Shown here in pieces: positions 3,204 to 28,390 of a stretch of DNA of 32,962 bases. The stretch comes from Candidatus Woesearchaeota archaeon (GTDB lineage: Archaea > Nanobdellota > Nanobdellia > UBA10117 > GCA-020343615), in the NCBI GenBank assembly GCA_020343615.1, contig CP070803.1:751118-784079 (forward strand). The letters are read 5' to 3'. Both the position numbers and the translations under genes were made by a program. A model generated the notes under the pieces. That model made no database searches and had not been told where the DNA came from. It saw only the letters and a program-made list of their open reading frames with translations. Each line of letters begins with the position of its first letter. The first letter of the stretch is position 1.

Positions 3204-5477
3204 ATGAAGAAAATTAAACCTTGTTCGCACATCGTATCCCAAGAAGGTGGAGACCGCGTTCTTAAAATCAACTGCGAAGGGTGTATTTTTTCCCCATCAA
3301 TAGAAGACCACGCCCTATGCATGCGTAAAAGTATAGATAATATTCTAGAAGAAGGGCACATAACAAAAATTTCGTTTCTACAAAAGCAAGAATACGTCTA
3401 TGATTCAGAACAAACAGCACTCTTAGTAGAAATAGCGAACTTAATCTATAGATTAACAAAAGAGGAAGATATTCTTTCTTCTGAAAAGATAGGTCCTGCT
3501 GGACAAAAATGTACCAGATGTTTTTCAAATAGAAGGGAATTTCTGAGAGACCTTTTCTACAATCAACTTAAAGAAGATCCAATTGTAGCATATAGAAAAA
3601 TAAGAAGAAGAATAATTGAAGAGGGTGTAAGATTAAAACATCCGTTATTAAAAGAATGTATTCAATGTGAAAAAACCTTCATAAGCACCTTAGATTACAT
3701 AAAAAAAGAACTAGAGAAGACTAAAATAATAAGTAGAAGCAAACCATTTCTTAAAGATTATAAAGAAGGAGATAGAACAATATATACTCGATTGTTTAAA
3801 CCAAGTATAAGACCGAATTTTATGTATACTCAAATAGCAAGTAGATATCCTACTGATGCTGAAGAAATAGATAATTATATTCTAGAAGATGGTTCTGAAG
3901 TTTCTATACTAAAATTACCTAATGATGTGAGATATACCTATCATCTGGTACCGCCCGAGTTTAAATTAACAGAGCCAAAATATGAGATACTAAGTAAAGC
4001 TAGAGAGATTATAGCAGAGCACAAACCAAAGAAAGAGGAGTTCATAGATCCACAAAGAACAAGAAGTATTTTTTATAATATAGAAAAGGACCTTATAAGA
4101 GATCTTATTAAAACAGAAAAATTGAAACTGACGTATAAGGAAATAGAAAAATTAAGCGAGATTTTGGTTAGGTATACAATTGGTTTTGGTTTGGTTGAAA
4201 TTCTTTTAACAGATCCAAAAATACAAGACGTTAGTATAAATGCTCCCGTAGGGATTAATAAAGTTAACGTTGTACATGCTGATCATGGGGAATGTATAAC
4301 AAACATCTCTTTTACTGAAAGAGAGATTGATTCTTGGGCAACTAAGCTAAGAATGTTGTCAGGAAGACCATTAGATCAAGCCAATCCTGTTTTAGATGCT
4401 AATCTAGAAATACCTGGTGGTAGATCTAGAGTCTGTGTAATTCAAGACCCATTGTCTCCATTCGGTTTAGCTTTTTCTTTTAGAAGACATAGGGAAAGAC
4501 CATGGACCTTACCATTATTCATAAAAAATGGAATGTTAACACCTCTAGCAGCAGGTTTATTTAGTTTCTTAATAGATGGATCTAGAACAATTCTAATAGC
4601 AGGCACTAGATCTGCAGGAAAAACAAGTTTGATGAGTTCTTTACTAGTAGAAATAATGAGGTCTTCCAGAATAATTACAGTAGAAGATACTCCAGAGCTG
4701 CCTGTCTCATACTTACAAAAGTTAAATTATGATATCCAACCAATGAAAGTAAGGTCAGTAATAGTAGGAGCTGAAGGCGAATTATCTGCAGCAGAAGGTA
4801 TTCGTACTTCATTGCGTCTAGGAGACTCTAGTTTAATAATAGGAGAAGTTAGGTCAAAAGAAGCTATAGCACTTTATGAGGCAATGAGAGTAGGAGCTTT
4901 AGCGAATGTTGTAGCAGGAACAATTCACGGTTCTTCTCCATACGATGTATTCGATAGAGTTGTAAATGATTTAGGTGTTCCAAGAACATCTTTTAAGGCT
5001 ACTGACATAATCGCCGTAGCTAATCCTATAAAGTCAGCGTCAGGACTCGAGAGAAATCGTAGACTAGTCCAGGTTTCAGAAGTTAGGAAATTTTGGGAGA
5101 AGGATCCATTAGACGAAAAAGGATTTGCAGATTTAATGAAATATGATGCTAGAGAAGACAAAATAGTACCTACAGATGTTTTTACACAAGGGGATTCTTA
5201 TATTTTAAAGGAAATAGCCAGTAATGTAAGAGAATGGGTAGGAGATTGGGACGCAGTATGGGACAACATTGTTTTAAGAGCTAGAATAAAGAAAGCTTTA
5301 GTAGACCTTGCAAAAAAAACAGACAATAATGAACTATTAGAAGCTGAATTTGTGGTAGAATCTAATGATAAGTTCCATGAAATTGCTGAAGCAATAAGCC
5401 AAGAGATAGGCGTTACTGATCCAAAAAGAATTTACTCTGAATGGGAACTTTGGCTTAAATCAAAAATAAAAGAATGA
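3204..5477 (+). CDS. Type II/IV secretion-pilus assembly ATPase (GspE/TadA/ArlI type) with Cys-rich N-terminal extension
   Basis: A 757-aa hexameric-type ATPase that would power assembly of a pilus-like machine at the cytoplasmic face of the membrane. The Walker A motif GTRSAGKTS starts at residue 467 (Lys473). The Asp box-like ITVEDTPELP follows at about 494-503. The Walker B-type stretch SLIIGEVRSKEA surrounds Glu548, and GTIHGSSPYD provides the His box near residue 574. The N-terminal 160 residues carry Cys at 7, 24, 27, 39, 103, 106, 152 and 155, including three CxxC pairs that suggest a zinc-binding domain not typical of bacterial GspE. The next gene overlaps its stop by ATGA, coupling it to the platform protein. 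TadA, ArlI and type IV pilus ATPases cannot be separated by eye. Confidence 0.93.
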   Translation: MKKIKPCSHIVSQEGGDRVLKINCEGCIFSPSIEDHALCMRKSIDNILEEGHITKISFLQKQEYVYDSEQTALLVEIANLIYRLTKEEDILSSEKIGPAGQKCTRCFSNRREFLRDLFYNQLKEDPIVAYRKIRRRIIEEGVRLKHPLLKECIQCEKTFISTLDYIKKELEKTKIISRSKPFLKDYKEGDRTIYTRLFKPSIRPNFMYTQIASRYPTDAEEIDNYILEDGSEVSILKLPNDVRYTYHLVPPEFKLTEPKYEILSKAREIIAEHKPKKEEFIDPQRTRSIFYNIEKDLIRDLIKTEKLKLTYKEIEKLSEILVRYTIGFGLVEILLTDPKIQDVSINAPVGINKVNVVHADHGECITNISFTEREIDSWATKLRMLSGRPLDQANPVLDANLEIPGGRSRVCVIQDPLSPFGLAFSFRRHRERPWTLPLFIKNGMLTPLAAGLFSFLIDGSRTILIAGTRSAGKTSLMSSLLVEIMRSSRIITVEDTPELPVSYLQKLNYDIQPMKVRSVIVGAEGELSAAEGIRTSLRLGDSSLIIGEVRSKEAIALYEAMRVGALANVVAGTIHGSSPYDVFDRVVNDLGVPRTSFKATDIIAVANPIKSASGLERNRRLVQVSEVRKFWEKDPLDEKGFADLMKYDAREDKIVPTDVFTQGDSYILKEIASNVREWVGDWDAVWDNIVLRARIKKALVDLAKKTDNNELLEAEFVVESNDKFHEIAEAISQEIGVTDPKRIYSEWELWLKSKIKE

Positions 5478-5707
5478 AAGATGAATATCAAAGTGATTGG
5501 GGCGATGACGAAGAGATAGATAGAGGACTGATATACAGATACAAAAAAAGATTAGAAAGTGAATTAAGCCCTGAAGACGAAGGATTGAATAGGTCATATT
5601 CTCACGATTATATAACATTCAAGCAAGAACAAGCTGGCAAATTTCATCTGTTGTTCGAGTTCCTATGTAGAAAAGCATATAGCATTCTAAAAGTAAAAAT
5701 AAAGTAA
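5474..5707 (+). CDS. N-terminal part of TadC/ArlJ-type platform protein, ending at an in-frame TAA
   Basis: A 77-aa ORF whose ATG overlaps the ATPase stop (ATGA). Its tail (FEFLCRKAYSILKVKIK) resembles the cytoplasmic lead-in that precedes the first T2SSF domain in archaeal TadC-like proteins. The TAA at 5705-5707 is in the same frame as the large platform ORF downstream. The 33 codons between the TAA and the first possible start of that ORF (TTG 5807) are open and protein-like (KDREKIEVFLRLAHFDTSPE..). I therefore read 5474-7597 as one gene broken by one stop, although a naturally split protein is possible. Confidence 0.7.
   Translation: MKDEYQSDWGDDEEIDRGLIYRYKKRLESELSPEDEGLNRSYSHDYITFKQEQAGKFHLLFEFLCRKAYSILKVKIK
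5705..5707 (+). other. In-frame TAA interrupting the platform-protein gene
   Basis: The codons around it read AAA-GTA-AAA-ATA-AAG-TAA-AAA-GAT-AGA-GAA. Upstream and downstream frames are identical, so a single base substitution (for example from CAA, GAA or AAA) explains the break; no indel is needed. TAA, TAG and TGA all terminate other genes here, so code reassignment is unlikely. Confidence 0.85.
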
Positions 5708-7597
5708 AAAGATAGAGAAAAAATAGAAGTTTTTCTAAGGTTAGCCCACTTCGATACTTCTCCTGAGAGCGTATACAGCTTAACATACTTTTTATGCTTA
5801 GTCGCCTTGATTGCTTCAATAGTTGTTACCATGATTATAGGTAATTTTTATGTGATTCTTGTCGGAATAATATTGGTTATATTTGTCTTATTTTATATCC
5901 CGAGTTACCCTAAAACAACATTTATTAAATGGCGTGCCAAAGCTTCTGATCAGTTAGTTCTAGCGGTTATGTATATGGTTATCCAAATGGAGAGAGTTTC
6001 CAATCTAGAATTAGCAATAGAATTTGTAGCTCGGCATACAGCCCCTCCCGTATCTCTTGACTTTATGAAAGTGTTATGGGACGTTGAAAGTAAAATTTAT
6101 TCTTCTGTTTCAGAATCTCTTGAAGAATACATAAAAACTTGGAGAGGTTGGAACGATGATTTTATAGAAGCAGTTCACTTAGTACAGTTCTCTCTTCAAC
6201 AAAAAGATGATGACGAGAGAAGAAGAACCTTGCATAGATCTACTATCGTAGTTTTAGAAGGAACACATCAACACATGTTAAAGTATGCTCATTCCTTACA
6301 AGGACCAATGCAGGCATTGCACATGTTGGGTATCGTCTTACCTGTTATGGCTTTAGTTATGCTGCCTCTAATTGGAGCTTTCATGGGAGCCAACATAAAA
6401 TGGTACCATCTTGTTATAATGTATAATCTGATGTTCCCTGTTTTAGTCTATTATCTTGGAAAAGATATGTTACAGAAAAGACCAGCAGGAACCAGCGGAG
6501 GAGATAGTTACACATACATGCTAGCTAAGTATCATAAACCTTATATAAAAATCGGAAGTTTAAAATTAAGAATACCGCCCGCTTTATTCGGAGTTATTGT
6601 TTTCTTTATAGTAGCTCTTCCAGGATTACTTTACTTTTTTAGTTTAACTATCACCTATATGAGCGGTCTTCCTGGCAAGGAAATACTATTTAGTATACCT
6701 TCCCTTTTATTTACTCTAGATATGATTCTTGCAGTAGGGTTAGGTACAGGAGTATATTTCTATTATTCAGTTCATTATCTGATTAAAGTAAAACATAAAA
6801 TAGAGAGAATTGAAGCAGAATTCCCTTCAGGAGTTTTTCAATTAGCAAATAGAATCAAAGAAAAAGTGCCTGCTGAAGTAGCATTTGAAAAAGTCGCAAA
6901 ATCAATACATAAAAGCGACATAGGAGAAATGTTTTGGCTTATAGACTACAATTTAAAAAAACAGGGCACAGACTTAGAAGACGCTATATTTAATAAAAGA
7001 TACGGAGCTATAGCGTATTATCCCTCAGGGATCATAAGATCAGCTATGGCTGTTCTAGTTGATGCTGCAAAAAAAGGACCTACATCTGCAGCAAAATCTC
7101 TTTTTTCAGTCTCCAAGTATTTAACTAGTTTGAGAAGAGTTAATGATAGGTTAAAGGACCTATTAGCAGACACAACCTCTTCTATGAAAATGCAAATATC
7201 AATGTTCATACCTTTAATCACAGGACTAGTTGTAGGTCTTAATGTGCTAATTACTACGATTCTTAGAAATCTAGGTGCTGTTTTAACTGACCTTCCAATA
7301 CAAGGCGGAGATTCAGCTCAAATGAATTTAGGAACAGATTTATTATCCATATTTCAATTTGAATTTATGATTCCTGCATTTATTGCCGCGCTTGTTGTTG
7401 GTATATATATAATCCAAATTGTCTGTTTAATTTCATACTTAGTTAATGGGATAAATAATGGTTACGATACAATTGAACTGAAGTATCTAATAGGAAGAAA
7501 TTTATTTATAGCAGTGCCGTTCTTTTGTATAGTAGCGGCATTAACCAGTATAATGTTAACAAATATAATAAATATAATGCCTATGGCAGGTGGATAG
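5708..7597 (+). CDS. TadC/ArlJ-type inner-membrane platform protein (two T2SSF domains), main part
   Basis: The inner-membrane platform on which the ATPase acts during pilus assembly. The open frame runs from just after the TAA at 5705; the first canonical start is TTG at 5807, giving 596 aa, but the 33 codons before it look like authentic family sequence. The first cytoplasmic T2SSF-like helical domain spans about residues 40-160 from 5807 and is followed by two membrane helices. A second domain (about 330-460, including FPSGVFQLANRIKEKVPAE) is followed by three more. Two tandem T2SSF domains are the archaeal ArlJ/TadC arrangement. No ribosome-binding site precedes TTG 5807, so efficient independent initiation is doubtful; readthrough, reinitiation, a sequence error or decay are the alternatives. 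Confidence 0.85.
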   Translation, partial: KDREKIEVFLRLAHFDTSPESVYSLTYFLCLVALIASIVVTMIIGNFYVILVGIILVIFVLFYIPSYPKTTFIKWRAKASDQLVLAVMYMVIQMERVSNLELAIEFVARHTAPPVSLDFMKVLWDVESKIYSSVSESLEEYIKTWRGWNDDFIEAVHLVQFSLQQKDDDERRRTLHRSTIVVLEGTHQHMLKYAHSLQGPMQALHMLGIVLPVMALVMLPLIGAFMGANIKWYHLVIMYNLMFPVLVYYLGKDMLQKRPAGTSGGDSYTYMLAKYHKPYIKIGSLKLRIPPALFGVIVFFIVALPGLLYFFSLTITYMSGLPGKEILFSIPSLLFTLDMILAVGLGTGVYFYYSVHYLIKVKHKIERIEAEFPSGVFQLANRIKEKVPAEVAFEKVAKSIHKSDIGEMFWLIDYNLKKQGTDLEDAIFNKRYGAIAYYPSGIIRSAMAVLVDAAKKGPTSAAKSLFSVSKYLTSLRRVNDRLKDLLADTTSSMKMQISMFIPLITGLVVGLNVLITTILRNLGAVLTDLPIQGGDSAQMNLGTDLLSIFQFEFMIPAFIAALVVGIYIIQIVCLISYLVNGINNGYDTIELKYLIGRNLFIAVPFFCIVAALTSIMLTNIINIMPMAGG

Positions 7598-7598
7598 A

Positions 7599-7724
7599 TT
7601 GTCTAAAAAGGGCGATATTTGGCCAACTATGAGGCTTATAATAATATTTGGTCTAGGAATAATAGTGTTAATATTTGTTTTTAAAGTGTTAGGAAAATGG
7701 TTAAAAGACTTTATGATTTCTTAG
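7599..7724 (+). CDS. Small prepilin-like protein, 41 aa (TTG start)
   Basis: Begins with TTG one base after the platform gene's TAG and reads (M)SKKGDIWPTMRLIIIFGLG followed by a hydrophobic helix to about residue 31 and a basic tail. SKKG-D followed by a membrane helix fits an archaeal type III signal sequence, cleaved after Gly by a prepilin peptidase. It overlaps the next gene's start at 7697 by 28 nt. Short size and non-ATG start make it uncertain, but the position and motif match the neighbours. Candidate minor pilin or small membrane accessory. Confidence 0.6.
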   Translation: MSKKGDIWPTMRLIIIFGLGIIVLIFVFKVLGKWLKDFMIS

Positions 7725-7885
7725 GCAAAAGGGGCATTTACCTTTCACTAAGAATGGTGGTTTTACTGGTAGTTTTTTCTTTTATATTCATTGTTCTAGC
7801 TTTTATACTGGTATTATTCTACCCGCAACCATCATTCTTTGATAAACTATATGCAGTATCCTCCAGAATATTCAATTTAGGTTAA
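7697..7885 (+). CDS. Small single-span membrane protein, 62 aa
   Basis: The protein starts MVKRLYDFLGKRGIYLSLRM and continues with one strong hydrophobic helix (about residues 21-44), then a short outside tail. GKRG-IYLS could be a prepilin-type cleavage site, but the 14 residues before it make this weaker than in the neighbours. It overlaps the preceding small ORF and ends one base before the next ATG (7887), so it is part of the operon. No named family recognised. Confidence 0.65.
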   Translation: MVKRLYDFLGKRGIYLSLRMVVLLVVFSFIFIVLAFILVLFYPQPSFFDKLYAVSSRIFNLG

Positions 7886-7886
7886 A

Positions 7887-9101
7887 ATGGCAACTATAAC
7901 TCCAGGGAAAATAGTATTGATAGTAATCTGTATCTTTTTCATATATATCGCTCTTTTTCCAGGAACCACAGTAGTAGCAAAAATGGGGGAACAATCTCCA
8001 GATTCTTTGTGTAAATGGAATGCTGCTATGAATTCCGTAACCCCGATGCATGCATGGTTATTAGCACCTAACTTTGCTTGTCATGCTAGAGCAGTTGTCT
8101 TAGATGCTGAAGGTAAAACAACTGTATTTAAGAATGAGCTAGGCAATGTAGAAGAATGCTCATGCGACCAATTTTACGGACCTCTTATTGATTTTAGTCC
8201 ATCTCTTACTATTGATAATGATATGCTTACATACAGTCGAATTCCAGTATCAGATAATAAAAGTGAAATATCTATGTATGTTTACGACGAGACAGAGTTA
8301 GGTAGCTTGCGAGTCTATTTTAATGATATTGTTTCCACTAACTATACTATTTATACAAAAGAAAAAAGATTTTTTTGGACAAATTATGAAAAATGTACAG
8401 AAGGAGTAATAGTATTAGAAGATGAGATTAATGAACCAGATTTAGCTCCTCTAGAGTGTAGCATAGATGAAACCCAAGGTTCAGCGATTAAAATAACATT
8501 TAAAGACATTGACAGAAATCTACTTCCTATAGAAATTAAGGAAATTGAGGTAAATAATGTTAGTCTAGATAAAATACCTATAAAGAATATACTTTTCAAG
8601 TACTATACAATAAATGACCAACAAGACAAATGTATCTCTGATAGTAATGCAATGGGTACTAAACATTGTACTCCTGTATGGCAGAGGAGATGGGTAACTA
8701 AGAGACTAGCGGAACTAGTAATGAGATGCTGGCAAATGGGAGGAAGCGGAGGCTATTGGGGGGATTTTGATTGCTTTGTAGGATGCGTTTATTATAACTC
8801 AGATGAATCCGACGAGATATACTACACTACCTTAGAGCAAGCTCTAGATGATAATTACTTTAGAAGTTCTACTGAAGATGAATATGTTCCATATAATTCC
8901 TTAATAACTATGGAAAATATAGCTGTAGAGGAAACAGATTCTCTTAAAAATGGGAAGTGCTTTTATATAAAGTATCACCGGGGAGATTTATTACTAATTA
9001 CTGTACCAGGCATGTATGCACCAATTATTATCCCTGCGGACAAACCAAGAGTAATACTTACTTTTGGTAGAACTGTAGAAGAGGCAAGAAGGGATCTATA
9101 A
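7887..9101 (+). CDS. Membrane-anchored surface protein with CW-x-MG motif, 404 aa
   Basis: One N-terminal hydrophobic helix (about residues 8-30) anchors a large domain predicted to be outside the cell. The middle (about 95-260) looks all-beta, with IDNDMLTYSRI aligning with YDGDINTYTSI of the next protein, a pattern seen in discoidin-like folds. Near residues 253-295 a distinctive motif reads C-x3-W-x3-W...LAELVMRCWQMG...DCFVG, which the next protein shares. Ten or more Cys suggest disulfides. Unlike most neighbours, a clear KKG/KKA prepilin site is absent (PGKIVLIV is the nearest). The stop overlaps the next start (TAATG). Probable minor subunit of the pilus-like machine; function unknown. 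Confidence 0.8.
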   Translation: MATITPGKIVLIVICIFFIYIALFPGTTVVAKMGEQSPDSLCKWNAAMNSVTPMHAWLLAPNFACHARAVVLDAEGKTTVFKNELGNVEECSCDQFYGPLIDFSPSLTIDNDMLTYSRIPVSDNKSEISMYVYDETELGSLRVYFNDIVSTNYTIYTKEKRFFWTNYEKCTEGVIVLEDEINEPDLAPLECSIDETQGSAIKITFKDIDRNLLPIEIKEIEVNNVSLDKIPIKNILFKYYTINDQQDKCISDSNAMGTKHCTPVWQRRWVTKRLAELVMRCWQMGGSGGYWGDFDCFVGCVYYNSDESDEIYYTTLEQALDDNYFRSSTEDEYVPYNSLITMENIAVEETDSLKNGKCFYIKYHRGDLLLITVPGMYAPIIIPADKPRVILTFGRTVEEARRDL

Positions 9102-10336
9102 TGTTAGATACAAAAAAAGGAGAAATGTCAGTATTTTGGGTGGTACTTATAATTATAGGCATTGTTGTAGCAATTGTAGTGTGGGTTATATTCTTTTTTG
9201 TTTCAGAAACTGTTTCTGTTGAAGGTGAAATATTTCATACAATTGGATGCCAAGCAAATAACTATGCTGCAGCTTACGGCTTACTCAGGGATATAGGTAT
9301 GCATTTCCCCAAACCTCTCTGCGATCCAATAGAAATAGATATAAACGCAGATGACTGTGATTGTGAAGATTTTACAGCATTTATGCAGACAGAAAATCCT
9401 ATTGGTAATTTATACGATGGGGATATAAATACTTATACTTCGATTGTTGCTGATAAGGGAAAAGTAGTAATGGAGTTTGAAGTTAAACAAGTCTTTGATT
9501 ATAATCTAACTTCTTTTAGAATATACATAGACGGTGTCTTGACAAATCAGCCGGAAAAAGTAGAAATAAAAATTAAAGGAGAAGGTATATTTAGTGGATG
9601 GAAATCATGTGCTTCTGATACAGCATTTGCCCCAGGATGGCATGAGCTTGTAAAATCAGATTGCCCAGTTCCTGCTAAGGGTAAGATAGGCCTTGTATTC
9701 GATACATTATACGAAAAAGGTACAGAGGTAAATATCGTAGATATAGAAATGACTTTTTTCGATGGAGTAAACACCTTTACTCTAACAGACATGTTAAAAA
9801 TTCCTCCAAAAACTTCTGACGAAACTTCCCGAAAATATTCCTATTTATGTAAAACAGAAATGTCTGGTGGAAAATGCTCTGAAACGTGGAAAAAGAAATG
9901 GGTTGCTTTAAAACTAGGAAAGCTAGCAGCTAGCTGTTGGTCTATGGGATTAGAAGGAAGAAGGAATCCCGGAGCATTTGCTTGCTTTGGAGGTAAAATA
10001 GAAAATATAGAGGTTTCCCTTGTAGAGGTTCCTCCAGAGAATGTTATTGATAGCGTAAGTGAAGCTATGAACTGGGCAGATTTACGTGAAAATCTAACAT
10101 ATAGGGAGTATTTACCAAAACCTAAATTAACTGGAAGCTGTCCAGATTTTGTACCTTACCTCAGATCTCCGGAATCATTTGTTTCTTGGTTAATACCTGC
10201 CGTTGAAAATAAAGCAGTTGAAAAAGGCTACCCTGAAGGAAGCAGGTACGCTATTGTATATGCAGATATTCACATTCAAAGTGTTCTCTGGGCTACATTT
10301 AACCCACCCTATAGTGATAAAATCGTTTTCTGCTAA
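9101..10336 (+). CDS. Prepilin-like surface protein, paralogue of the preceding gene, 411 aa
   Basis: The N-terminus MLDTKKGEMSVFWVVLIIIG is a good prepilin-like signal: KKG, an acidic residue at +1, then a helix to about residue 33. Residues 100-235 contain YDGDINTYTSIVADKGKVVM, resembling discoidin (F5/8 type C) jelly-roll domains, often glycan-binding. Residues 258-300 carry the shared motif C-x3-W-x3-W...LGKLAASCWSMG...ACFGG. The overall order matches the preceding gene, so the two arose by duplication. The C-terminal 80 residues have further Cys and aromatic residues. Likely a minor or tip pilin exposed outside the cell; the discoidin call is inference from pattern. Confidence 0.8.
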   Translation: MLDTKKGEMSVFWVVLIIIGIVVAIVVWVIFFFVSETVSVEGEIFHTIGCQANNYAAAYGLLRDIGMHFPKPLCDPIEIDINADDCDCEDFTAFMQTENPIGNLYDGDINTYTSIVADKGKVVMEFEVKQVFDYNLTSFRIYIDGVLTNQPEKVEIKIKGEGIFSGWKSCASDTAFAPGWHELVKSDCPVPAKGKIGLVFDTLYEKGTEVNIVDIEMTFFDGVNTFTLTDMLKIPPKTSDETSRKYSYLCKTEMSGGKCSETWKKKWVALKLGKLAASCWSMGLEGRRNPGAFACFGGKIENIEVSLVEVPPENVIDSVSEAMNWADLRENLTYREYLPKPKLTGSCPDFVPYLRSPESFVSWLIPAVENKAVEKGYPEGSRYAIVYADIHIQSVLWATFNPPYSDKIVFC

Positions 10337-10374: not shown

Positions 10375-10554
10375 ATGAGAATATTGCACGAAAATAGAGC
10401 CACCAGTAGAGCAATACTGGGTTGGACGGCCATACTAATTTTAGCCATTGTTGTTTTAATAATAATCATATCTTATGTAGGTGGAGACCTTTCAACGCTT
10501 TTAAAATCCCTAGTCTCAAATGCATTGGCTAGGTTTATGGGAATAGGTGTATAG
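10375..10554 (+). CDS. Small prepilin-like protein, 59 aa
   Basis: The protein starts MRILHENRATSRAILGWTAI and then has one hydrophobic helix to about residue 36 and a short tail (GGDLSTLLKSLVSNALARF). SRA-ILGW may be the processing site. It is preceded by its own TATA element and ends one base before the next ATG. The size fits a bare pilin helix with no globular head. It was found by reading the gap between larger genes. Confidence 0.6.
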   Translation: MRILHENRATSRAILGWTAILILAIVVLIIIISYVGGDLSTLLKSLVSNALARFMGIGV

Positions 10555-10555
10555 A

Positions 10556-10699
10556 ATGAAAAGAGCAGACATGCCAATTACCCCCTTAATAATATTGATT
10601 CTAACAATAATTTTCCTATTGCTAGCTCTATTTTTCATAACAGGAGTGTTACCGACGAGTCTAGAAGAAGTAGGATCATACTTTAATAAATTGTTATAG
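10556..10699 (+). CDS. Small prepilin-like protein, 47 aa
   Basis: The protein starts MKRADMPITPLIILILTIIF. KRA-D before one hydrophobic helix (about residues 8-30) resembles an archaeal type III signal, with the short acidic tail VLPTSLEEVGSYFNKLL. It starts one base after the previous stop and ends three bases before the next ATG, so it sits tightly in the operon. Too small for fold recognition; probably a bare-helix minor pilin or membrane peptide. Confidence 0.6.
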   Translation: MKRADMPITPLIILILTIIFLLLALFFITGVLPTSLEEVGSYFNKLL

Positions 10700-18398: not shown

Positions 18399-19291
18399 GA
18401 AAGAAAGGATTTGATACAGCAGCAATAGTGATTGTAGCAGTAATTATAATCCTAGGAGTCCTTTCTTTAATACTTGTTTATTCAACTACATCATCTCCAT
18501 TTAAAGAAACAGGAATTAAATTAAGCGAAAAATCAGAAGAGTATGCTAACGTGTCTTTTGGAAATTTAACATTAGACCCTTCTTTGTACATGGGAAGACC
18601 TTACGATGAATGTGGTAATAAAAGAGGAGTTTCTTCACAAGATGTAAGATTCGATGAAGTTACATTCATAGGTCTAACAGTATACCCAGAGTACTACGAA
18701 TGTGTAGGTTATGATTGTTGTAGAGGATTTGTTTATGAACATATCTTGGACATGGGTAAGGAATACACAGATAAGTTTCTTCATATAGATTATTATCTTC
18801 AAAATACGTTTGAAGTTGACTCATTTGCTAAAGGTTGTACTGGTGACGAATGTTGTCAATTTGACACGGTATACACTGGTGTGACTATAGGAGATATAGT
18901 TTATTGTAAGTATCCTGAACCATATATTTTTCTATTTTATTACTCAGCTACTGGAAAAGAAGCTGATTGGCATAAATTTTATCATACGAGATATTATACT
19001 CCCCCAGATCCTCCTGGAAAACAAGAATTAATTCTCCCAATTGGAGATGAATTTAGATTCATAAAAGTTATCACATTAAATTCCTATTTAGATTATATTA
19101 ATGGGGAAGTTATACCTTGGAAATATCCAGGAAAAAGGTACATAACTGTTTGTAACAAATACCATCCAGATATAGAAGGCACAAATCATCTCTATAACCC
19201 AGATGGAGATGATATCATATTATTAGATCCATTAGAAGGTGGTAATGGGTATATACTTAATATGAGCACAGAGGGTATATGGGACGGATGA
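18380..19291 (+). CDS. Prepilin-like protein with discoidin-like domain, paralogue of the gene at 10703, 303 aa
   Basis: The N-terminus MVEIRLGKKGFDTAAIVIVA has a KKG-F prepilin-like site and a hydrophobic helix to about residue 36. It shares with the 376-aa protein: the small DECGN motif (residue 75 region), CC followed by an FxxGKxY-type strand (EHILDMGKEYTDKFLHIDYY), and a closing strand FRFIKVITLNSYLDYINGEV (versus FRYVKLVSLNQDIDYAKAEV). The latter resembles the ends of discoidin-type domains. A GGNGY motif sits near the C-terminus, but the PKD domain is absent. Like its paralogue, it is followed directly by a Sec-exported Cys-rich protein. Likely minor or tip pilin. Confidence 0.8.
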   Translation: MVEIRLGKKGFDTAAIVIVAVIIILGVLSLILVYSTTSSPFKETGIKLSEKSEEYANVSFGNLTLDPSLYMGRPYDECGNKRGVSSQDVRFDEVTFIGLTVYPEYYECVGYDCCRGFVYEHILDMGKEYTDKFLHIDYYLQNTFEVDSFAKGCTGDECCQFDTVYTGVTIGDIVYCKYPEPYIFLFYYSATGKEADWHKFYHTRYYTPPDPPGKQELILPIGDEFRFIKVITLNSYLDYINGEVIPWKYPGKRYITVCNKYHPDIEGTNHLYNPDGDDIILLDPLEGGNGYILNMSTEGIWDG

Positions 19292-20820: not shown

Positions 20821-21908
20821 AAGGAACAGAAGATCTCATAATGTCAATTATTATCGCTATAATCATCACACTAATTTGTGTTTGGGCATGGTATGTGTTT
20901 GTATATGAACCTGTTGCTGGAGGTGTAACAAAAGGGTTAAGAGCAGATCAATATTGTGTCGAAGGAAGAGAAACCTATGGTTACTGGGCTTCAGATTTAA
21001 TAATAGATTTTAATAAAATATATTATGCAAAAGGATTGGCAATTTATATAACTCCAGGAGGGCAGGGTATGCTCAGTCTTCATGCTGAGAAAATATTCGT
21101 TTATGTTTATGATGATAAAGGAGATGAGATTCCTATAGGGTATGTAGGAAAGATAGAAGATGGAGACATTGGTAGAGAGATGCCCTGTATAGTTACTGGC
21201 AGCTTAGGAGCGGGAAAGAAGAACAAATGCCATCATTATGAAGGTCCTATTACAAAAATAAAAGCATCAGCTGAACAACACCCAGCGTGTTATGTAAGTG
21301 CTACATTTGCTTATTTTCATCCTTTAATAAGGGTTATAGAATTTTTTACTGAAACAGATTTAATTACAATTTGTTCAGTAGATAAACTAAAAGTACAATT
21401 ATTCCATCCTTGCATGCAAGAATCTACACTAGTAGAGGGAGATTGCGACGGAGATGGTATAGAAGAAATAGGATGGAATCATCAGTTCCCAATAGAATGC
21501 GAGCCAGATGCAGTTGCACGACATTGTACTATTGAAAGAGGAACATATGTGGTACAAAATATGGATAATATAAGACAGATGAATTTTCCAGGACTTCCCT
21601 TATTACAAGTAGGAGCTAGAGGCGGATGTGAAGGAGTTCAAACAGGTTGTGATATTAAAATATACTTCGGAAAGCCTGTAGAAGATGGTTTAGATCCAGA
21701 GGGATGCGATGATCCTGCAGTGGTGTGGACCCACGTAACAAGTTTTCCGAATTTAGATTATGATTATATCTATTCAAATCCTATAAGTGTTTCAAATTAT
21801 GTAGAAATAGATACAGAAGCTACATATCATAGGAAATGGTGCCTTAAGGTAGAGTCAGGAGGTAATTGTTGGATAAATTCAATTGACGTCCAGAGCTATA
21901 AAAAATGA
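20808..21908 (+). CDS. Prepilin-like surface protein, 366 aa
   Basis: ATG 20808 gives MRKVKGTEDLIMSIIIAIII, a prepilin-like signal with Gly at -1 and an acidic residue nearby; an upstream TTG at 20802 would add only two residues. After the helix (about 11-32) there is a large beta-rich outside domain with scattered Cys and a short Asp-rich loop CDGDGIEE (about 206). It also has the phrase GCEGVQTGCDIKIYFGKP and a Cys-Trp-rich end. I do not recognise the family. It overlaps the preceding gene by 13 nt, and its stop overlaps the next start (ATGA). Confidence 0.78.
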   Translation: MRKVKGTEDLIMSIIIAIIITLICVWAWYVFVYEPVAGGVTKGLRADQYCVEGRETYGYWASDLIIDFNKIYYAKGLAIYITPGGQGMLSLHAEKIFVYVYDDKGDEIPIGYVGKIEDGDIGREMPCIVTGSLGAGKKNKCHHYEGPITKIKASAEQHPACYVSATFAYFHPLIRVIEFFTETDLITICSVDKLKVQLFHPCMQESTLVEGDCDGDGIEEIGWNHQFPIECEPDAVARHCTIERGTYVVQNMDNIRQMNFPGLPLLQVGARGGCEGVQTGCDIKIYFGKPVEDGLDPEGCDDPAVVWTHVTSFPNLDYDYIYSNPISVSNYVEIDTEATYHRKWCLKVESGGNCWINSIDVQSYKK

Positions 21909-23869
21909 GAAAAAAAGCAAGCATGTTGTCAATACTTGCATATTTGATTGCAATTATATTCATAGCTGTAGTTCTCTATAAAGTTTTTACGTTCTCTGTA
22001 GAAAAATATCCAGCAATAGAAGTAAGAGAGCTTTCCAATGAATATGATTACGCATTAAATGCACCGGAAAATGTACACATACCGCATATCTTTCCTGCGA
22101 CGTATTTTGAAGGATGCGGCATAGGGGCAGTTCTGTTTGACGTTAATAAAGATTCGGAGGGGAATTTAGTACATGGAACACATATGGGGATTTCTCGTTG
22201 TGGTGATGGATGTATTGATTATTTTAATTTGATGACAGGTATAATGGCTGCTATGTTGGCATTTGATACTGCTCAAGGAGTTTGGGAAGTAGCAACTGCT
22301 TGGTTTGCGGGTCATCTTGTATCTAGGGCAGTGAGTGAAGCTTTTAAAGAAGGAATGGAGTCAGTAGCTCAAAAAGGCACTAGAGAAATAATGGAAGAGT
22401 TTATTGAGGAGCAAGGAGGATCAGCAGCATCTAAATATATTAAAAAGAAGATGGTGAAAAGTGGCTCAAAATCATACTTAGGTAAAGTATTTGGTACTAA
22501 ATTTTTAAAAGAGGCAGCAGAGCAAGCAAGTGGTGAAGCAGTTGAGAAGACACTGGTTAAACAAGCATGGCAATCAATCAGTAAACAGTTATTAGGCGAA
22601 TCACTAGGTAAAAAAGCAAAAAATTACTTAAAAGAGAAACTAGGACTTCTTTTTAAGGGTGTTGAAGACGTTGTAGGACCTGGAGACCTAGCCAAGAAAG
22701 TACAAGGAGAATTTCTTTCAGAATCTGTTTTAGAACTTTTTGTAAACAACCCAAATCTCAGAGAGGAACTTGTAGAGCAACAATTTGAAACAGCAGCACT
22801 TGCTGTAATGAAGAAATCTGGTAAGTCTGGTGAGGCATTTATGGGAGCTATAGTTCATAAACCACAGACTTTATTACCTTATGACGTAGGCCCAGGACTC
22901 AAAACACTGGATGATTCTATAAATACCCTAACTTGGGTACCTGCCGTATATACTGATGACATTCTAGATTATGTTGAAGCAAATTCTGTTAGGTCCCCTA
23001 CTGTTTGGTATGCTGGAGGTCTAGATGCTGTAGTAAAAGAATGTAGATGGTCTGGAAATCTTGATCCATTACTAGATTTTTTTAAGAGGAACGGTGATTC
23101 TACAGGTATACTCACGGGAGCTACTCAAGACTTTGCTTCAAGTGGCATGATTCCTAATAGCGTTATAAGGCAAGCAGTTATTGATACAGGAGACGATGCC
23201 TTCCAAAAGCATTTTGTAGCTAGGGTACTGGCAAAGGAGTCAGCAGAGGTGTTCTTTACTGGTGCTAGCAAAGAGCTTGTAGAAAAAACTACAAAACTAT
23301 CACTAAGGCCCTCAAAGATAGCGAAAATGTTTGCAAAATATACAGTAGGTCTAGAAATAAAAGTAGCAAAAGCCTACGCATTAAGAGTTGTTCCTGCTGG
23401 AACAGCTACTGGAGCAGGAGCAAGAGACGCAATAGGAATAACTTTTGGTTTCTTTGAAGAACATGTATTAGGTTTACCACATCCCGGCCATTTCTTAGGC
23501 ATGTGTTGTTTTAAGACAGATTACACTACGAGATTTATTATCGAAATGGGTCAATTTGCTTCAGGTCTATTCGGTGCTGTTCCAGGTATGTCCTTTGTTC
23601 AAGCAGCACTAGACAAATTAACACTTGACATTTATTCAGAAGAAATTGACTTATGTAAAAGAGATATATATCTCTATAGCTATATTAAAGACGGAGGGAT
23701 AACGCCCGAGAGTCCAGAGTTCACACCTGAAAAAAAGGCTAAAAGATGGACAGGTCTTATTGAAACAGATACAGTCTTAATTAATTATGTAGATGCTCCT
23801 AGAATACTATTTTTGAATAAAACTATTGAAAATAAAATGGATATTAATGTTATTGTGGGAGGAAGTTAA
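21905..23869 (+). CDS. Large helical protein with prepilin-like N-terminus, 654 aa
   Basis: MRKKASMLSILAYLIAIIFI carries RKKA-S before a hydrophobic helix. Residues 60-110 contain Cys (GCGIG, CGDGCIDYF). The remainder is unlike its beta-rich neighbours: an Ala/Glu/Lys-rich helical region (about 135-330), then mixed segments, and a less polar stretch near residues 485-560 with GHFLGMCCF. It may be a soluble helical domain held outside the membrane by the N-terminal helix, or partly membrane-associated. No family recognised. Starts with ATGA overlap and ends 3 nt before the next gene. Confidence 0.75.
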   Translation: MRKKASMLSILAYLIAIIFIAVVLYKVFTFSVEKYPAIEVRELSNEYDYALNAPENVHIPHIFPATYFEGCGIGAVLFDVNKDSEGNLVHGTHMGISRCGDGCIDYFNLMTGIMAAMLAFDTAQGVWEVATAWFAGHLVSRAVSEAFKEGMESVAQKGTREIMEEFIEEQGGSAASKYIKKKMVKSGSKSYLGKVFGTKFLKEAAEQASGEAVEKTLVKQAWQSISKQLLGESLGKKAKNYLKEKLGLLFKGVEDVVGPGDLAKKVQGEFLSESVLELFVNNPNLREELVEQQFETAALAVMKKSGKSGEAFMGAIVHKPQTLLPYDVGPGLKTLDDSINTLTWVPAVYTDDILDYVEANSVRSPTVWYAGGLDAVVKECRWSGNLDPLLDFFKRNGDSTGILTGATQDFASSGMIPNSVIRQAVIDTGDDAFQKHFVARVLAKESAEVFFTGASKELVEKTTKLSLRPSKIAKMFAKYTVGLEIKVAKAYALRVVPAGTATGAGARDAIGITFGFFEEHVLGLPHPGHFLGMCCFKTDYTTRFIIEMGQFASGLFGAVPGMSFVQAALDKLTLDIYSEEIDLCKRDIYLYSYIKDGGITPESPEFTPEKKAKRWTGLIETDTVLINYVDAPRILFLNKTIENKMDINVIVGGS

Positions 23870-23872: not shown

Positions 23873-24106
23873 ATGGTAAATAAAAAAGGAATGCAGTATA
23901 TTGTAAAGGTAATCGTTTTTGTAATAATATTAGCAATGTTAGCCCTTATAGTTATAGTAAGTGTTGGAATGGGAGGTGTAGAAGAAGCTAACAACTTCTT
24001 CAAAGAGCGTTTTTCAAAGATGATTGGAGCAAATTCCGCGTTTATGATTCCAATAGGAAACATATTTAATTATAATCTAATAGAGGTTATTAAAAGTGAT
24101 ACGTAG
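23873..24106 (+). CDS. Small prepilin-like protein, 77 aa
   Basis: The N-terminus MVNKKGMQYIVKVIVFVIIL has a KKG prepilin-like site and helix to about residue 33. It ends with an amphipathic 45-residue tail (VEEANNFFKERFSKMIG). There is no globular head, so it resembles a minimal pilin. It overlaps the next gene's GTG start by 11 nt. Confidence 0.75.
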   Translation: MVNKKGMQYIVKVIVFVIILAMLALIVIVSVGMGGVEEANNFFKERFSKMIGANSAFMIPIGNIFNYNLIEVIKSDT

Positions 24107-24680
24107 TAAAAAAGGTACTGATGATTTTCGGACAGTAGTTCATATATTAATAGGAGCAATTTTTTTCATTATAGTGGCAATAGCTGTAATGTTTTTTATC
24201 ACAGGACAAGAAATAAAAGCAATATTTGAATCAGGTGCAATAGAAGGGGACAAGATCGCTACAAGAATTATCTTTTCTAAAAATTGCCTCGCTTTAAGTG
24301 AAACAATTACTGCTGATTGGTATCTAAATACTGATGAGAGGCATGAAAGCGAGTTAGTGAGGTTAGGTATTATTGATTACAATAAATGGGACGCTGCTAA
24401 GATTTCTGCCGATGCAAATCCTAAAGATATTAGTAATATAATAAACAAATGTGTAGGCTACACGATTACAGATAAGTATAAATATACCTTAAATATTGGT
24501 CCACCAGAAGGATCTTTTGATGTTGAGGGAATAGCAGGGGATGGTAGTGTTTGTCTTGTAGGAGCATCAATTACCAGAAAAAAATTATATCCTGTTTTAC
24601 TGTATAATGCAGGAAACTATGAAAATAGAGTGTTAAATATGACAATAAGATTTTGTTATCTTAACGAAACAGTAGGATGA
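24096..24680 (+). CDS. Prepilin-like protein, 194 aa (GTG start)
   Basis: GTG at 24096 gives MIRSKKGTDDFRTVVHILIG. SKKG-TDD and the following helix (about 14-35) fit a prepilin signal, and GAGGT at 24082-24086 provides a ribosome-binding site 9 nt upstream. The outside domain has Cys at about 68, 116 and 148, a helical first half and a beta-like second half (YTLNIGPPEGSF, VLNMTIRFCYL) reminiscent of minor pilin heads. The stop overlaps the next start (ATGA). No named family recognised. Confidence 0.78.
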   Translation: MIRSKKGTDDFRTVVHILIGAIFFIIVAIAVMFFITGQEIKAIFESGAIEGDKIATRIIFSKNCLALSETITADWYLNTDERHESELVRLGIIDYNKWDAAKISADANPKDISNIINKCVGYTITDKYKYTLNIGPPEGSFDVEGIAGDGSVCLVGASITRKKLYPVLLYNAGNYENRVLNMTIRFCYLNETVG

Positions 24681-25189
24681 ATAGAAAAAAAGGATTTGGA
24701 GTCATAGGAGGAGTTCTACTCTTAATAATCATTTTCTTAATTACCGTAGTAGTGATATGGTCAGTAGCAAGCCAAGGACTAGCAGGACATCCTCCAGTAA
24801 TGCACTTAAACGCTGTAGTAGTTTCTTCAAATTATACTAATGATTGTGACATCTTTTTACTGAATTTACTTAGATATAAAGATCCAGCCAAGGGGCTTAC
24901 TTATGGAGAAAAGATAATCTTATCTAAGCAGCTAAAAGAGAGCACAGCAGTTGGAATAGAACTAAAGGAAATCATTGAAAATGATATTATTAAAAGGCCT
25001 TTAGATTGTGTTACAGATTGTTTTGAAATAATAGCACAAGGTGAAGGTGACCAAGAGCCTTTTCTAAGTTATGCTCCCTGTGGTAAGTGTGATAAAAGAC
25101 TATCTATAGACTATTGTGAAGCTTATCTTCCTGAATTTAATCCTGAAGATGAACATATAAAGGTGCAATTAGCACTAGAGATTCGATAA
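24677..25189 (+). CDS. Prepilin-like protein, 170 aa
   Basis: The N-terminus MNRKKGFGVIGGVLLLIIIF has a perfect KKG-F site and helix to about residue 31. The head contains six Cys, including DCVTDCFE and PCGKCDKRLSIDYC in the last 60 residues, and a helical segment LTYGEKIILSKQLKES. Start overlaps the preceding stop (ATGA). It is the last gene of the tightly overlapping part of the operon; the next gene follows a 36-nt A-rich gap. Probable minor pilin. Confidence 0.78.
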   Translation: MNRKKGFGVIGGVLLLIIIFLITVVVIWSVASQGLAGHPPVMHLNAVVVSSNYTNDCDIFLLNLLRYKDPAKGLTYGEKIILSKQLKESTAVGIELKEIIENDIIKRPLDCVTDCFEIIAQGEGDQEPFLSYAPCGKCDKRLSIDYCEAYLPEFNPEDEHIKVQLALEIR

Positions 25190-25219: not shown

Positions 25220-25225
25220 AAAGTC

Positions 25226-25861
25226 ATGAATAAGAAAGGAATAGACAATATATGGTATTTTGCTCTATCTATATTTTTCATAATGTTTGTAGCACTTTTA
25301 TGGGTGTCTACAGCAACACCTTTAGAATATACTGTAGAAACAGGAAGAAAACAAGCTATACTCTTCAACATGTATATCACAGCAGAACAAATAAGAAATT
25401 ACGTAGAAGAATCAGCTAGATTATCAACTTTCTATGCTCTAAGACAAATGGAAGTACCGATAGACAGAGCTGATTGTTTTGCTGATGTTGATGGTAAAAT
25501 AGAATTTTCAGAGATTCATTTTACTTTAGCGATGCGAAAGTATCTAGAACTCTATTCTCTAGAAAATATGTATTCTGATGTAAACCCACCTCTTTACGGA
25601 GTCTTTTACTGGAACCCAGCACATACGCCCCCTGTTTCAGAGAGAGGTACCCTTGCAGATGAGGCTACTCATAGCACTGCAGCTAAATCTAGATTATATG
25701 TTCCACCCATAGATGGAGGAACTAAAATAAGAATAACAGGGACTGCTGATGGAGATATTCAAATAATAAATCAGAGGTATTCGGTTATATATTCAGCAAG
25801 CCCTACCTTTGAGATTGAAGTAACTTGTCAAGAATATGAAGACTTTATGGAAGATCTTTAA
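25226..25861 (+). CDS. Prepilin-like protein, 211 aa
   Basis: MNKKGIDNIWYFALSIFFIM has KKG-I-D before a helix ending near residue 32. The helix continues into an amphipathic stretch (about 40-75, AEQIRNYVEESARLSTFYAL), as in long-helix pilins. The C-terminal half is beta-rich and ends with DGDIQIINQRYSVIYSASPT. It ends 11 bp before the stop of the convergent minus-strand gene at 25873, so transcripts from both sides may overlap. Likely a pilin-like subunit. Confidence 0.78.
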   Translation: MNKKGIDNIWYFALSIFFIMFVALLWVSTATPLEYTVETGRKQAILFNMYITAEQIRNYVEESARLSTFYALRQMEVPIDRADCFADVDGKIEFSEIHFTLAMRKYLELYSLENMYSDVNPPLYGVFYWNPAHTPPVSERGTLADEATHSTAAKSRLYVPPIDGGTKIRITGTADGDIQIINQRYSVIYSASPTFEIEVTCQEYEDFMEDL

Positions 25862-25872
25862 TTATATATTTA

Positions 25873-26316
25873 CTAAGGACAAGGATTTCTTGTAGCAAGA
25901 TTATTGTTTTCAGATACTTCTGCTATATTATTTGCAGGATCTACTTCTACAGTTACTGCTCCACCTACAGCCTCGATTAGTAGAGGAAGAACAGCTCCGC
26001 CAGGAAGATCTACTACTACAGTTCTAAATCCAAAACCATCACTAATATCAACTTCAACGTCTTCAATATAGTGTTCACACACGTTGAATACATTAACGTA
26101 CTCTTCGTCACAATTGAAATTTTCATCATCAGCTTTTACTATTAGATCTGATGAACCTTCTGCTACCTGAGGACCTTCAGCAATTTTTATTCCAAGAAGA
26201 CCAGCTTCTTGAATTCTAGGATATAAATATAGACTTAAAAAGAATATAACAATTATAGCAATTGCAATTGCTACAACTATACCAAACCCACTAAAATCAG
26301 CTTTTTTATATTTCAT
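25873..26316 (-). CDS. Prepilin-like protein with CARDB-like domain, 147 aa
   Basis: MKYKKADFSGFGIVVAIAIA carries KKA-D before a hydrophobic helix (to about 32). Residues 55-147 form an Ig-like beta domain that closes with EVDPANNIAEVSENNN, the typical end of CARDB (cell-adhesion related) domains. Its ATG overlaps the stop of the small gene upstream (ATGA), placing it last in a three-gene minus-strand operon. Likely an adhesive minor pilin. Confidence 0.8.
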   Translation of the reverse strand: MKYKKADFSGFGIVVAIAIAIIVIFFLSLYLYPRIQEAGLLGIKIAEGPQVAEGSSDLIVKADDENFNCDEEYVNVFNVCEHYIEDVEVDISDGFGFRTVVVDLPGGAVLPLLIEAVGGAVTVEVDPANNIAEVSENNNLATRNPCP

Positions 26317-26483
26317 GACAGATCTAATGTTATGTTACTTGCTTGGTCTAAGAAATCACTAAGAGTAAATCCACCTTTAGTTAACAAACCTTTAGACATT
26401 AGCCAAAAAATAACCACAAAAGCTAGTATTAGTATAATAACACCTATTACCCACATAAAATTTTGAACAGTTCCTTTTTTCAT
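26313..26483 (-). CDS. Small prepilin-like protein, 56 aa
   Basis: Read on the minus strand from ATG 26483 (or the adjacent ATG 26486), it gives MKKGTVQNFMWVIGVIILIL and a helix to about residue 27. A short Gly/Asp tail ends NITLDLS. GAGGGGGA lies just upstream as a strong ribosome-binding site. Both ends overlap neighbouring genes by ATGA, which strongly supports a real gene despite its size. A minimal pilin-like peptide. Confidence 0.75.
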   Translation of the reverse strand: MKKGTVQNFMWVIGVIILILAFVVIFWLMSKGLLTKGGFTLSDFLDQASNITLDLS

Positions 26484-27187
26484 CATTCTTCCCCCTCGAA
26501 TAGTTCACAATATATTTTTATCTTATCTTCTGCTAGATAGCCTTGTCTGTTAACATCTCCAAAAGGATCCAATGGAAGATCATCAGCTGCGTTACAATCA
26601 GGATCAGCAGCACCCACATCATGCCAATCTGTAACTATTCTCCATCTTAGATTATTATTTCCAGGGTCAACTACCCCTAAATATATACTCACATTTAGTT
26701 CTGTTCCGTCAGGAGTGTCAGGAGATACTTCATAAGTGCCTACAGCATCTCCAATACTAAATTCAAATATCAGAGGACGATACTCGTGCGGAGGGTATTC
26801 ATCTGGATCATTGAAACTACATGCATGAGCATGATTTGTATCTCGATGAGCAGGGTCATCTGCCCAAGTCTCATCTACACTTATATTCACATCTACCCAG
26901 TATTCAGTTTCTACAGGGATTCTAACAGCATAAGTTGAGTAATCATCAATATCATCAGATTGCTTACAATCTTTAATTCCTGCCTCTGCACATTCATCTG
27001 CATCTATAATGGGCATATCATTACATTCCAAAGCTACACCTTCTACCCATTCCTCAGCCTCTTGGACTTTTTCACCCATCACAGGTATTACGTGTCCTGT
27101 AGCCCAATAAGCTATAGATGCTAGGAAAATTACAGCAAGAATAACAAGGGCAACAGTGCCTACTCCTATTTCTCCTCTATCATTCAT
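26483..27187 (-). CDS. Prepilin-like protein with acidic outer domain, 234 aa
   Basis: MNDRGEIGVGTVALVILAVI has DRG-E before a helix (about 9-28), a prepilin-like site with Gly at -1 and Glu near +1. The outer domain is strongly acidic and beta-rich (VDVNISVDETW, PLIFEFSIGD, ELNVSIYLGV) with Cys at about 54, 65, 73, 123, 203 and 228. First gene of the minus-strand trio and divergent from the pilin at 27318. No family recognised; possible minor pilin. Confidence 0.78.
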   Translation of the reverse strand: MNDRGEIGVGTVALVILAVIFLASIAYWATGHVIPVMGEKVQEAEEWVEGVALECNDMPIIDADECAEAGIKDCKQSDDIDDYSTYAVRIPVETEYWVDVNISVDETWADDPAHRDTNHAHACSFNDPDEYPPHEYRPLIFEFSIGDAVGTYEVSPDTPDGTELNVSIYLGVVDPGNNNLRWRIVTDWHDVGAADPDCNAADDLPLDPFGDVNRQGYLAEDKIKIYCELFEGEE

Positions 27188-27278: not shown

Positions 27279-27317
27279 ATCAAGAACTACTTTAAGTTAA
27301 AATAAAAAGTGGTAAAA

Positions 27318-27833
27318 ATGGTAAATAAGAAAGGCCAAGGAATTTCCATAAGTTTCATAGTCGTCGCAGCGATAGCGGCTTTGGTTTTAGTATTAGTTAT
27401 TGCATTTGCAACAGGTGGATTAGGAAAGTTCTTCAGCTCTATATTCCAAGCAGGAGAAGGAGGACAAGGCGGAATAGAAGTATCAACAGCACAGGCTAGA
27501 TGCAAAGAGTTGTGTACAGCCGCTGTAAATGGAGGATACGGAGCCTGGAATGACAGCAATTATTGTTGGGATCAATTTGGAATAGATATGAGCGGAGACG
27601 GAGTAATAAATTCAACTACTGAGAGATTTAATTGTTGGGAAGCTCCAATAAGTGAAAGATGTACTCTGACTAAAACAGATGCGTACGGTTACGGGATCAC
27701 TTGTAACCATGACAATTGCGGTACACCTAATGGATGCCCAGGAACTTGCTGCGTAGGTGGAGTGGCTTATAACCCGCGAGATTGTGAAGCCATAGCTGGA
27801 GCAAAGTGGAAACAAGATGTCTCTTGTCCATAG
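27318..27833 (+). CDS. Candidate major pilin-like protein, 171 aa
   Basis: I choose ATG 27318 (MVNKKGQGISISFIVVAAIA); a GTG at 27309 would add three residues. KKG-QGIS then an Ala/Val-rich helix (to about 34) is a classic prepilin pattern. The head starts with ARCKELC, contains YCWDQFG, then a calcium-loop-like DMSGDGVINSTTE and CW, and ends in a cluster of Cys (CNHDNCGTPNGCPGTCC). It shares this order with the next gene. With its own promoter and leader and monocistronic look, it is the best candidate for an abundant subunit, but expression is inferred. Confidence 0.8.
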   Translation: MVNKKGQGISISFIVVAAIAALVLVLVIAFATGGLGKFFSSIFQAGEGGQGGIEVSTAQARCKELCTAAVNGGYGAWNDSNYCWDQFGIDMSGDGVINSTTERFNCWEAPISERCTLTKTDAYGYGITCNHDNCGTPNGCPGTCCVGGVAYNPRDCEAIAGAKWKQDVSCP

Positions 27834-27855: not shown

Positions 27856-27862
27856 TTAAATT

Positions 27863-28390
27863 ATGATTATGAATAAAAAAGGAGTAATAGGGATTTATTG
27901 GATAGTTGCAGCAGCTATAGCCTTCTTGATTCTTGTGGTTATGATATATTTCATAAGAGGAGGAGTAGCGGAAGGCATGGTTGAAATTGAGAATATTAAA
28001 GACGTTTTTACAAATCCTCTTGAAAAAGAGAGACTAGCTTGTATTAGTTTATGTAATCAAGGTAAATCAACACTATATCGAGACGCAGATGAATGGAGAA
28101 CTTCTCCTTATTGTATGCGATCAGCAACTGTTGATCTTAATGGAGACGGAAAAATAAATACTAGTAGGGAATATGGACTACCTTGCTGGTATATAGGAGG
28201 AGCTAATATCCGCTGCGATATTGATTTAGACGATGGAACTATTTTAACAGAATGCAATTGCACTCAGAATGCTTGTTTATGTGGAGATGGCATTGGTCCT
28301 CCTGCACAAGGATGGGAAGAATGTGATTATGGAATTCCAGGTGTTGGTTGCGCAGTAGGAGAGTGTACTGTTGCGTGTAAATGTAGATAA
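27863..28390 (+). CDS. Prepilin-like protein, paralogue of the preceding pilin, 175 aa
   Basis: Start at ATG 27863 (MIMNKKGVIGIYWIVAAAIA) or the ATG two codons later at 27869. KKG-VIGIY and a helix to about residue 31 form the prepilin signal. The head matches the previous gene in order: ACISLC, YC, the loop DLNGDGKINTSRE, CW, RC, then a Cys-rich end with LCGDGIG...EECDYG...CAVGEC that also resembles the repeats in the 460-aa protein. Likely a second pilin-like subunit arising from duplication. Confidence 0.8.
   Translation: MIMNKKGVIGIYWIVAAAIAFLILVVMIYFIRGGVAEGMVEIENIKDVFTNPLEKERLACISLCNQGKSTLYRDADEWRTSPYCMRSATVDLNGDGKINTSREYGLPCWYIGGANIRCDIDLDDGTILTECNCTQNACLCGDGIGPPAQGWEECDYGIPGVGCAVGECTVACKCR

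Follow-up and report, generated by a model that had tools for sequence, protein, structure and literature searches.

We investigated a stretch of 32,962 nucleotides from the genome of a Candidatus Woesearchaeota archaeon, here called the window (G000:C1:751118-784079; positions below are those of the window unless stated otherwise), in which a long array of prepilin-like genes stands next to a pilus-type assembly ATPase and a platform gene. The genome is a single contig of 919,375 bases, 83.8% complete, and its lineage is that of the order of Ca. Pacearchaeota. By ATPase, the nearest named relative is Candidatus Pacearchaeota isolate Meg22_810_Bin_147 (61% identity), and the source archaeon is tiny and probably host-dependent. 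The ATPase gene (3204..5477, + strand) encodes a VirB11/CpaF/GspE-type protein of 757 amino acids (aa) with a Cys-containing N-terminal extension (Pfam T2SSE, E=5e-14); profile matches were obtained to 2oap from A. fulgidus, to CpaF (8rkd) and to FlaI (4ii7), and the protein is related to GspE2 as well as to CpaF and FlaI. A TadC/FlaJ-like platform gene (5474..7597) follows on the same strand.

We observed prepilin-type N-termini at 19 window genes (18 clear, one weak), in agreement with an earlier note on this DNA that had counted about nineteen. They comprise 15 called genes, three further short open reading frames (ORFs) carrying the motif in intergenic gaps (7590, 7697 and 10547), and the ORF at 10375 (p05), which has a weak R-A site only and was not picked up by the strict scan. 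The gene at 7887 (x03) is counted as the twentieth of the set by the outer domain that it has in common with the adjacent prepilin p04 (9101). The ORFs listed in the earlier note exist as described there, but x03 is devoid of a class III motif, and two large proteins of 1731 and 513 aa have Sec-secreted-like rather than prepilin-type N-termini.

The motif was defined by a rule of our own, as [KR]-[GA] just before an uncharged hydrophobic stretch of 16 residues within the first 16-22 residues. This rule served as a stand-in for FlaFind and SignalP 6 and was applied identically to the window and, as a control, to 14 stretches of 20 kb elsewhere in the same genome (280 kb sampled, 312 called genes). 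The motif was present in 15/30 called window genes compared to 12/312 control genes (Fisher p=2.8e-11), and four of these 12 belong to one other pilus locus at about 526 kb. Such N-termini could also belong to anchored surface proteins that merely lie near a pilus motor and do not polymerise; indeed, several of the proteins are very large or Cys-rich, and x03 and p05 have no clear class III site. However, among N-anchored proteins elsewhere in the genome only 2/32 carried the stricter motif. Thus, ordinary anchors, a possibility that the earlier note had raised, do not explain the window motifs as scored by our rule. Tight co-conservation and linkage to a prepilin peptidase, both described below, argue in the same direction, and we regard unpolymerised anchors as very unlikely.

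From the platform to 25861 the genes form one tight operon on the + strand, in which gaps do not exceed 38 nt and most genes overlap. It continues from the platform with two bare-helix prepilin-like genes, p01 (44 aa, GTG start; 7590..7724) and p02 (62 aa; 7697..7885), followed by x03 (404 aa, 13 Cys; 7887..9101), p04 (411 aa, 12 Cys; 9101..10336) and two more bare helices, p05 (59 aa, with the weak site SRA; 10375..10554) and p06 (50 aa; 10547..10699). The next prepilin-like protein, p07 (376 aa; 10703..11833), carries a PKD domain (Pfam PKD_4, E=1e-8), and its outer domain groups with that of its paralogue p09 (303 aa; 18380..19291). Between them lie the 1731-aa Sec-type protein, which contains 111 Cys and gives weak PKD matches (11824..17019), and the prepilin-like p08 (460 aa, 32 Cys; 17016..18398). 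The 513-aa Sec-type protein (44 Cys; 19279..20820) comes after p09, and a similar Cys-rich protein is present in a relative's locus (L155); both secreted proteins are candidate adhesins. The operon ends with the prepilin-like genes p10 (366-368 aa; 20802..21908), p11 (654 aa; 21905..23869), p12 (77 aa; 23873..24106), p13 (194 aa; 24096..24680), p14 (170 aa; 24677..25189) and p15 (211 aa; 25226..25861). After the operon, three prepilin-like genes lie on the opposite strand, namely, p16 (147 aa, weak CARDB match with E=0.0025; 25873..26316), p17 (57 aa; 26313..26486) and p18 (234 aa; 26483..27187), and are followed on the + strand by the tandem paralogues p19 (27309..27833) and p20 (27863..28390). 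An idea formed by eye, that p04, x03, p07 and p09 contain discoidin-like carbohydrate-binding domains, was dropped, as it had no Pfam support at E=10 and the p04 model was too poor.

On the other side, the ATPase is flanked by two pairs of conserved genes. Membrane proteins w02 (five transmembrane [TM] segments; 995..1552) and w03 (four TM segments; 1562..2104) are paralogues encoded on the + strand, and w02 represents a conserved core component. Their homologues lie upstream of the ATPase across the class, always on its strand, in 50 of the 67 testable loci, and neither protein has a Pfam or NCBIfam match. The related soluble coiled-coil proteins w04 (2106..2663) and w05 (2666..3097) are encoded divergently, on the - strand. 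Homologues occupy the same place beside the ATPase in 52/67 testable loci, and all 129 family members are on the opposite strand and none has a TM segment, which suggests that the pair is cytoplasmic. The match of w05 to Pfam FlaC_arch was nonsignificant (E of about 2.4, below many unrelated coiled coils), and w04 gave no match.

The platform is divergent: 5/19 homologues match Pfam T2SSF (best 5e-5), and the window protein itself is below T2SSF detection and has no PDB match. Both the single ATPase and the single platform announced in the earlier note are present, but a single in-frame TAA (5705-5707) divides the platform ORF into parts of 77 and 596 aa, with an identical frame on either side of the stop. 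Since the platform is one uninterrupted gene in relatives, the stop might mean that the locus is degenerate and the machine inactive in this genome. Yet the pilin genes themselves are intact and overlap tightly, the platform is split in at least one relative as well (L162), and the system would still work if the stop reflected an assembly error or a minority allele or if the product were made in two parts. Degeneration thus appears to us highly improbable.

We then compared this arrangement with that in relatives, using 80 named loci and nine longer stretches. Genes were called with a simple caller of our own, so that single counts may err by one or two. Full or near-full ATPase orthologues (42-61% identity) occur in nearly all related genomes searched. 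Motif-bearing genes made up 129/628 of the genes within about 10 kb downstream of the ATPase versus 13/826 upstream in named and unnamed relatives (p=4e-36, a value somewhat overstated because some unnamed stretches duplicate named contigs and cause slight redundancy). A lack of co-conservation with the ATPase and platform, the second doubt voiced in the earlier note, was accordingly not observed. The nearest ATPase found outside the DPANN archaea is encoded on a Haloterrigena plasmid (36% over residues 194-603) and adjoins a second secretion-system gene; its annotated surroundings show no row of pilin-like genes. As separate observations on this gene family, the orthologous ATPase of G030 (L159:16596-19874) contains an intein (Pfam Intein_splicing, 1e-28), and the ATPase frame of G032 extends over 1966 aa, suggesting that there are more inteins in the ATPase gene.

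The high number of pilins noted earlier, about twenty here, was confirmed, yet this genome is no exception: across the class, about 10-21 N-anchored genes are present in most intact related loci. Behind the platform, runs of anchored genes with a single helix mostly comprise 10-15 members in the window's order and reach 21 in G045, outside that order. A restriction of the pilin battery to the window's order, suggested by the 10-kb scan, was rejected, since longer stretches show the battery in other families of the class. As in the window, the arrays of relatives combine very small helices with giants and with small Cys-rich pilins in tandem, and nearly every intact locus that has a pilin array includes bare helices. 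Many of these arrays close with a prepilin of 500-740 aa and then three of about 160-290 aa, a positional match to p11-(p12)-p13-p14-p15; p11, the counterpart of the large proteins, has no PDB sequence match, p13, the first of the conserved 3' trio, has BLAST matches at the same position in relatives, and p15 closes the conserved module. In several relatives, the pilin arrays are interrupted by long genes for soluble proteins on the opposite strand (G001, of the same order as the window, 21331-24174; G002, 24000-26903; G006, 23138-27094; coordinates of joined stretches).

Full-length prepilin profiles fuse families via the common helix, and clustering was hence repeated on the outer domains with the helix removed. 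Recurrent families were obtained for p19/p20 (18 loci), x03/p04 (about 20 loci; for x03 a family of the C-terminal part only) and p15 (13 loci), while this clustering detected no relatives of p08, p10, p11, p13, p14, p16 and p18.

No prepilin peptidase is encoded in the window, as the earlier note had remarked, and we located an A24 peptidase elsewhere in the same genome, at G000:C1:913.5-914.4 kb (Peptidase_A24, Arc_PepC_II). In G034, an A24 peptidase gene lies within the pilin run, and in G043 it lies at the end of the pilin array. Class III processing is thereby tied to the genes of the array.

The p19/p20 family is found in 50/52 related genomes. A comparison of coordinates placed it 5-15 kb downstream of the ATPase, in the same orientation, in about a dozen genomes that do not belong to the order. 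Members have conserved Cys, and a calcium-type loop of the form DxDGDG, or DxSGDG in the Cys-rich p19, is present in 15/21 of them compared to 5/312 control proteins. Tandem p19-type genes number up to about six in G025, and a third, stand-alone p19-type pilin gene lies far from the locus (G000:C1:375649-375936). The structure model of p19 (predicted local distance difference test [pLDDT] of 79) comprises two helices, of which the N-terminal one is long, and a small head rich in Cys. The idea that this head has a known pilin fold was set aside, as Foldseek returned no match.

These features make p19 a candidate for the main pilin. Alternatively, the bare helices of 44-77 aa could be the main pilins, in the manner of Flp/Tad, with p19/p20 as minor subunits. 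Flp pilins are of similar size, the ATPase resembles CpaF/TadA, and bare helices occur, as described above, in nearly all intact array-bearing loci. On the other hand, these proteins have so little sequence outside the helix that a family is hard to recognise, each locus contains several different ones, and a conserved outer domain together with tandem duplication is seen only in p19/p20. We consider main pilins of the bare-helix type rather unlikely.

Another alternative is a secretion-type pseudopilus, in which the many pilins would form a short piston that exports, e.g., the two Cys-rich Sec-secreted proteins, and no long adhesive filament would be made. With its single ATPase and platform, its many minor pilins and its coencoded Sec-exported proteins, the layout is similar to that of type II secretion. 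Moreover, the calcium-type loop of the small pilins is reminiscent of GspG, the calcium-binding major pseudopilin. However, such archaea have no outer membrane or known secretin, and tandem duplication of the p19 type, as in G025, is typical of the main pilins of filaments (PMC4858521). A pseudopilus is in our view quite unlikely.

A multi-subunit pilus-type machine, as proposed in the earlier note, is well supported by the enrichment of the motif, by the conservation of the prepilin-type genes along with ATPase and platform, by the recurrence of pilin families and by a peptidase gene in or beside the array of two relatives. Several observations weigh against this reading, in addition to the stop in the platform gene. 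No run of anchored genes directly follows the platform in at least three sampled genomes (G053, G039 and G006), the pilins of G006 beginning further on; some anchored genes of relatives have a weaker K-S site or none of the K-G type; the head of p19 has no PDB fold match and is not a recognised pilin fold; and the structure model of p04 was unusable. Taking both sides together, we think it likely that the locus encodes one complete type IV filament superfamily machine, pilin set included, and that this form is typical of the class (Nanoarchaeia/Woesearchaeota-Pacearchaeota).

In such a machine, the prepilins would enter the membrane via Sec, and the A24 peptidase whose gene lies at 913.5 kb would cleave them behind K/R-G/A. 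Driven by the hexameric ATPase, the TadC-like platform would then stack the helices into a filament. With their tandem arrangement, richness in Cys and calcium-type loop, p19 and p20 are the likeliest main subunits, and about 15 other prepilins, from bare helices to the 654-aa protein, may be adhesins or the minor pilins that build the tip and base. Surface or tip adhesins could also be provided by the two Cys-rich Sec-secreted proteins, and the motor probably has cytoplasmic accessories in the coiled-coil pair and membrane accessories in the two multi-TM proteins. Attachment to other cells appears the likely job of this machine. Host contact is plausible, a reading drawn from the lifestyle and not from the sequence. 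A bolder view is that most of the roughly twenty pilins are built into one composite structure, that the Cys-rich calcium-loop head of the main pilin represents a new head fold, and that the filament is the basic cell-contact organ of the whole class of DPANN symbionts, having gone unrecognised because its pilins match no database family. We put this forward as a possibility that is more doubtful than probable. Few of the molecules that let DPANN symbionts hold on to their hosts have been described, and with a set of candidate pilins that is defined across the class and includes a likely main subunit, the question becomes directly testable.

Other genes of this genome deserve mention. A second, conventional pilus locus (L039:4114-11066, at about 526 kb of G000) contains four prepilin-like genes together with those for a KaiC protein, an ATPase and a T2SSF platform. 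A third secretion ATPase (T2SSE and PilB3_C; L037:34-1779, at about 731 kb of G000) has no prepilin-type gene in the same 20 kb. Within the window, an 84-aa ORF (31283-31537) resembles by eye only the start of a diphthamide-synthesis (Dph2-like) protein and is possibly truncated, and two small multi-TM proteins (31576-32222) are encoded behind a phosphoenolpyruvate-synthase-like gene and have homologues in the loci of three relatives.

Parts of this machinery have been noticed before. In the published texts, we found no description of the pilin set, though the figures or supplements of the cited papers may show part of it. In earlier surveys, the ATPase and platform of these archaea came to light and the pilins did not (PMC4858521): Makarova 2016 described the secretion ATPases of subclade 4F as having a variable Cys-rich N-terminal region, as occurring also in nanoarchaea and as having a TadC partner, and stated for the nanoarchaeal members that their cognate pilins "could not be identified" (PMC4858521). 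With this subclade, to which the window ATPase may belong, the window has in common the TadC partner and, in the ATPase sequence, only the Cys-containing N-terminal extension. Makarova 2019 presented DPANN type IV pilus "dark matter" islands (Fig. 2A there) with an ATPase, TadC and many unrecognisable signal-peptide proteins that were proposed to be diverse pilins (PMC6393860). These islands are given as an example figure, and the text of that paper does not treat class-wide conservation, families, order or a candidate main pilin (PMC6393860). Our analysis extends such work by the class-wide pilin battery with its recurrent families and gene order, by a candidate for the main pilin and by the linkage to the peptidase.

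Compared with the archaellum (Arl/Fla), the window has a related ATPase, class III prepilins and accessory coiled-coil proteins. In contrast to the archaellum, no FlaH/KaiC match was found among the scanned window proteins, a KaiC homologue being encoded at the separate 526-kb locus, and there was no FlaF/FlaG match and no significant FlaC match, the FlaD/E profile not having been tried. An identity with the archaellum was rejected since the scanned window proteins gave no KaiC/FlaH match and FlaC is not matched. Tad/Flp pili share the CpaF-like ATPase and short bare-helix pilins, whereas the window has a single fused platform instead of TadB plus TadC, no secretin, and large Cys-rich pilins. 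A close description is Locus 2 of Hamm 2024, which consists of CpaF, TadC and coiled-coil proteins and occurs across the Nanohaloarchaeota, Woesearchaeota, Pacearchaeota, Nanoarchaeota, Aenigmarchaeota and Undinarchaeota (cluster-2 DPANN) (PMC11291902). In the text of that paper, filament proteins are shown for Locus 1 only, and the coiled-coil proteins of Locus 2 are likened to viral attachment proteins (PMC11291902). The core of the window, i.e., ATPase, TadC-like platform and adjacent coiled coils, agrees with Locus 2 in gene content and taxa, a match made by description and not by sequence. The coiled-coil homologues found here, to which our comparison was confined, have no TM segment or export signal, which contrasts with the reading as viral-attachment-like proteins. 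A further difference from Locus 2, and from known archaeal type IV pili, which have few pilins per locus (PMC4858521), is that the core of the window carries about 20 prepilin-like genes.

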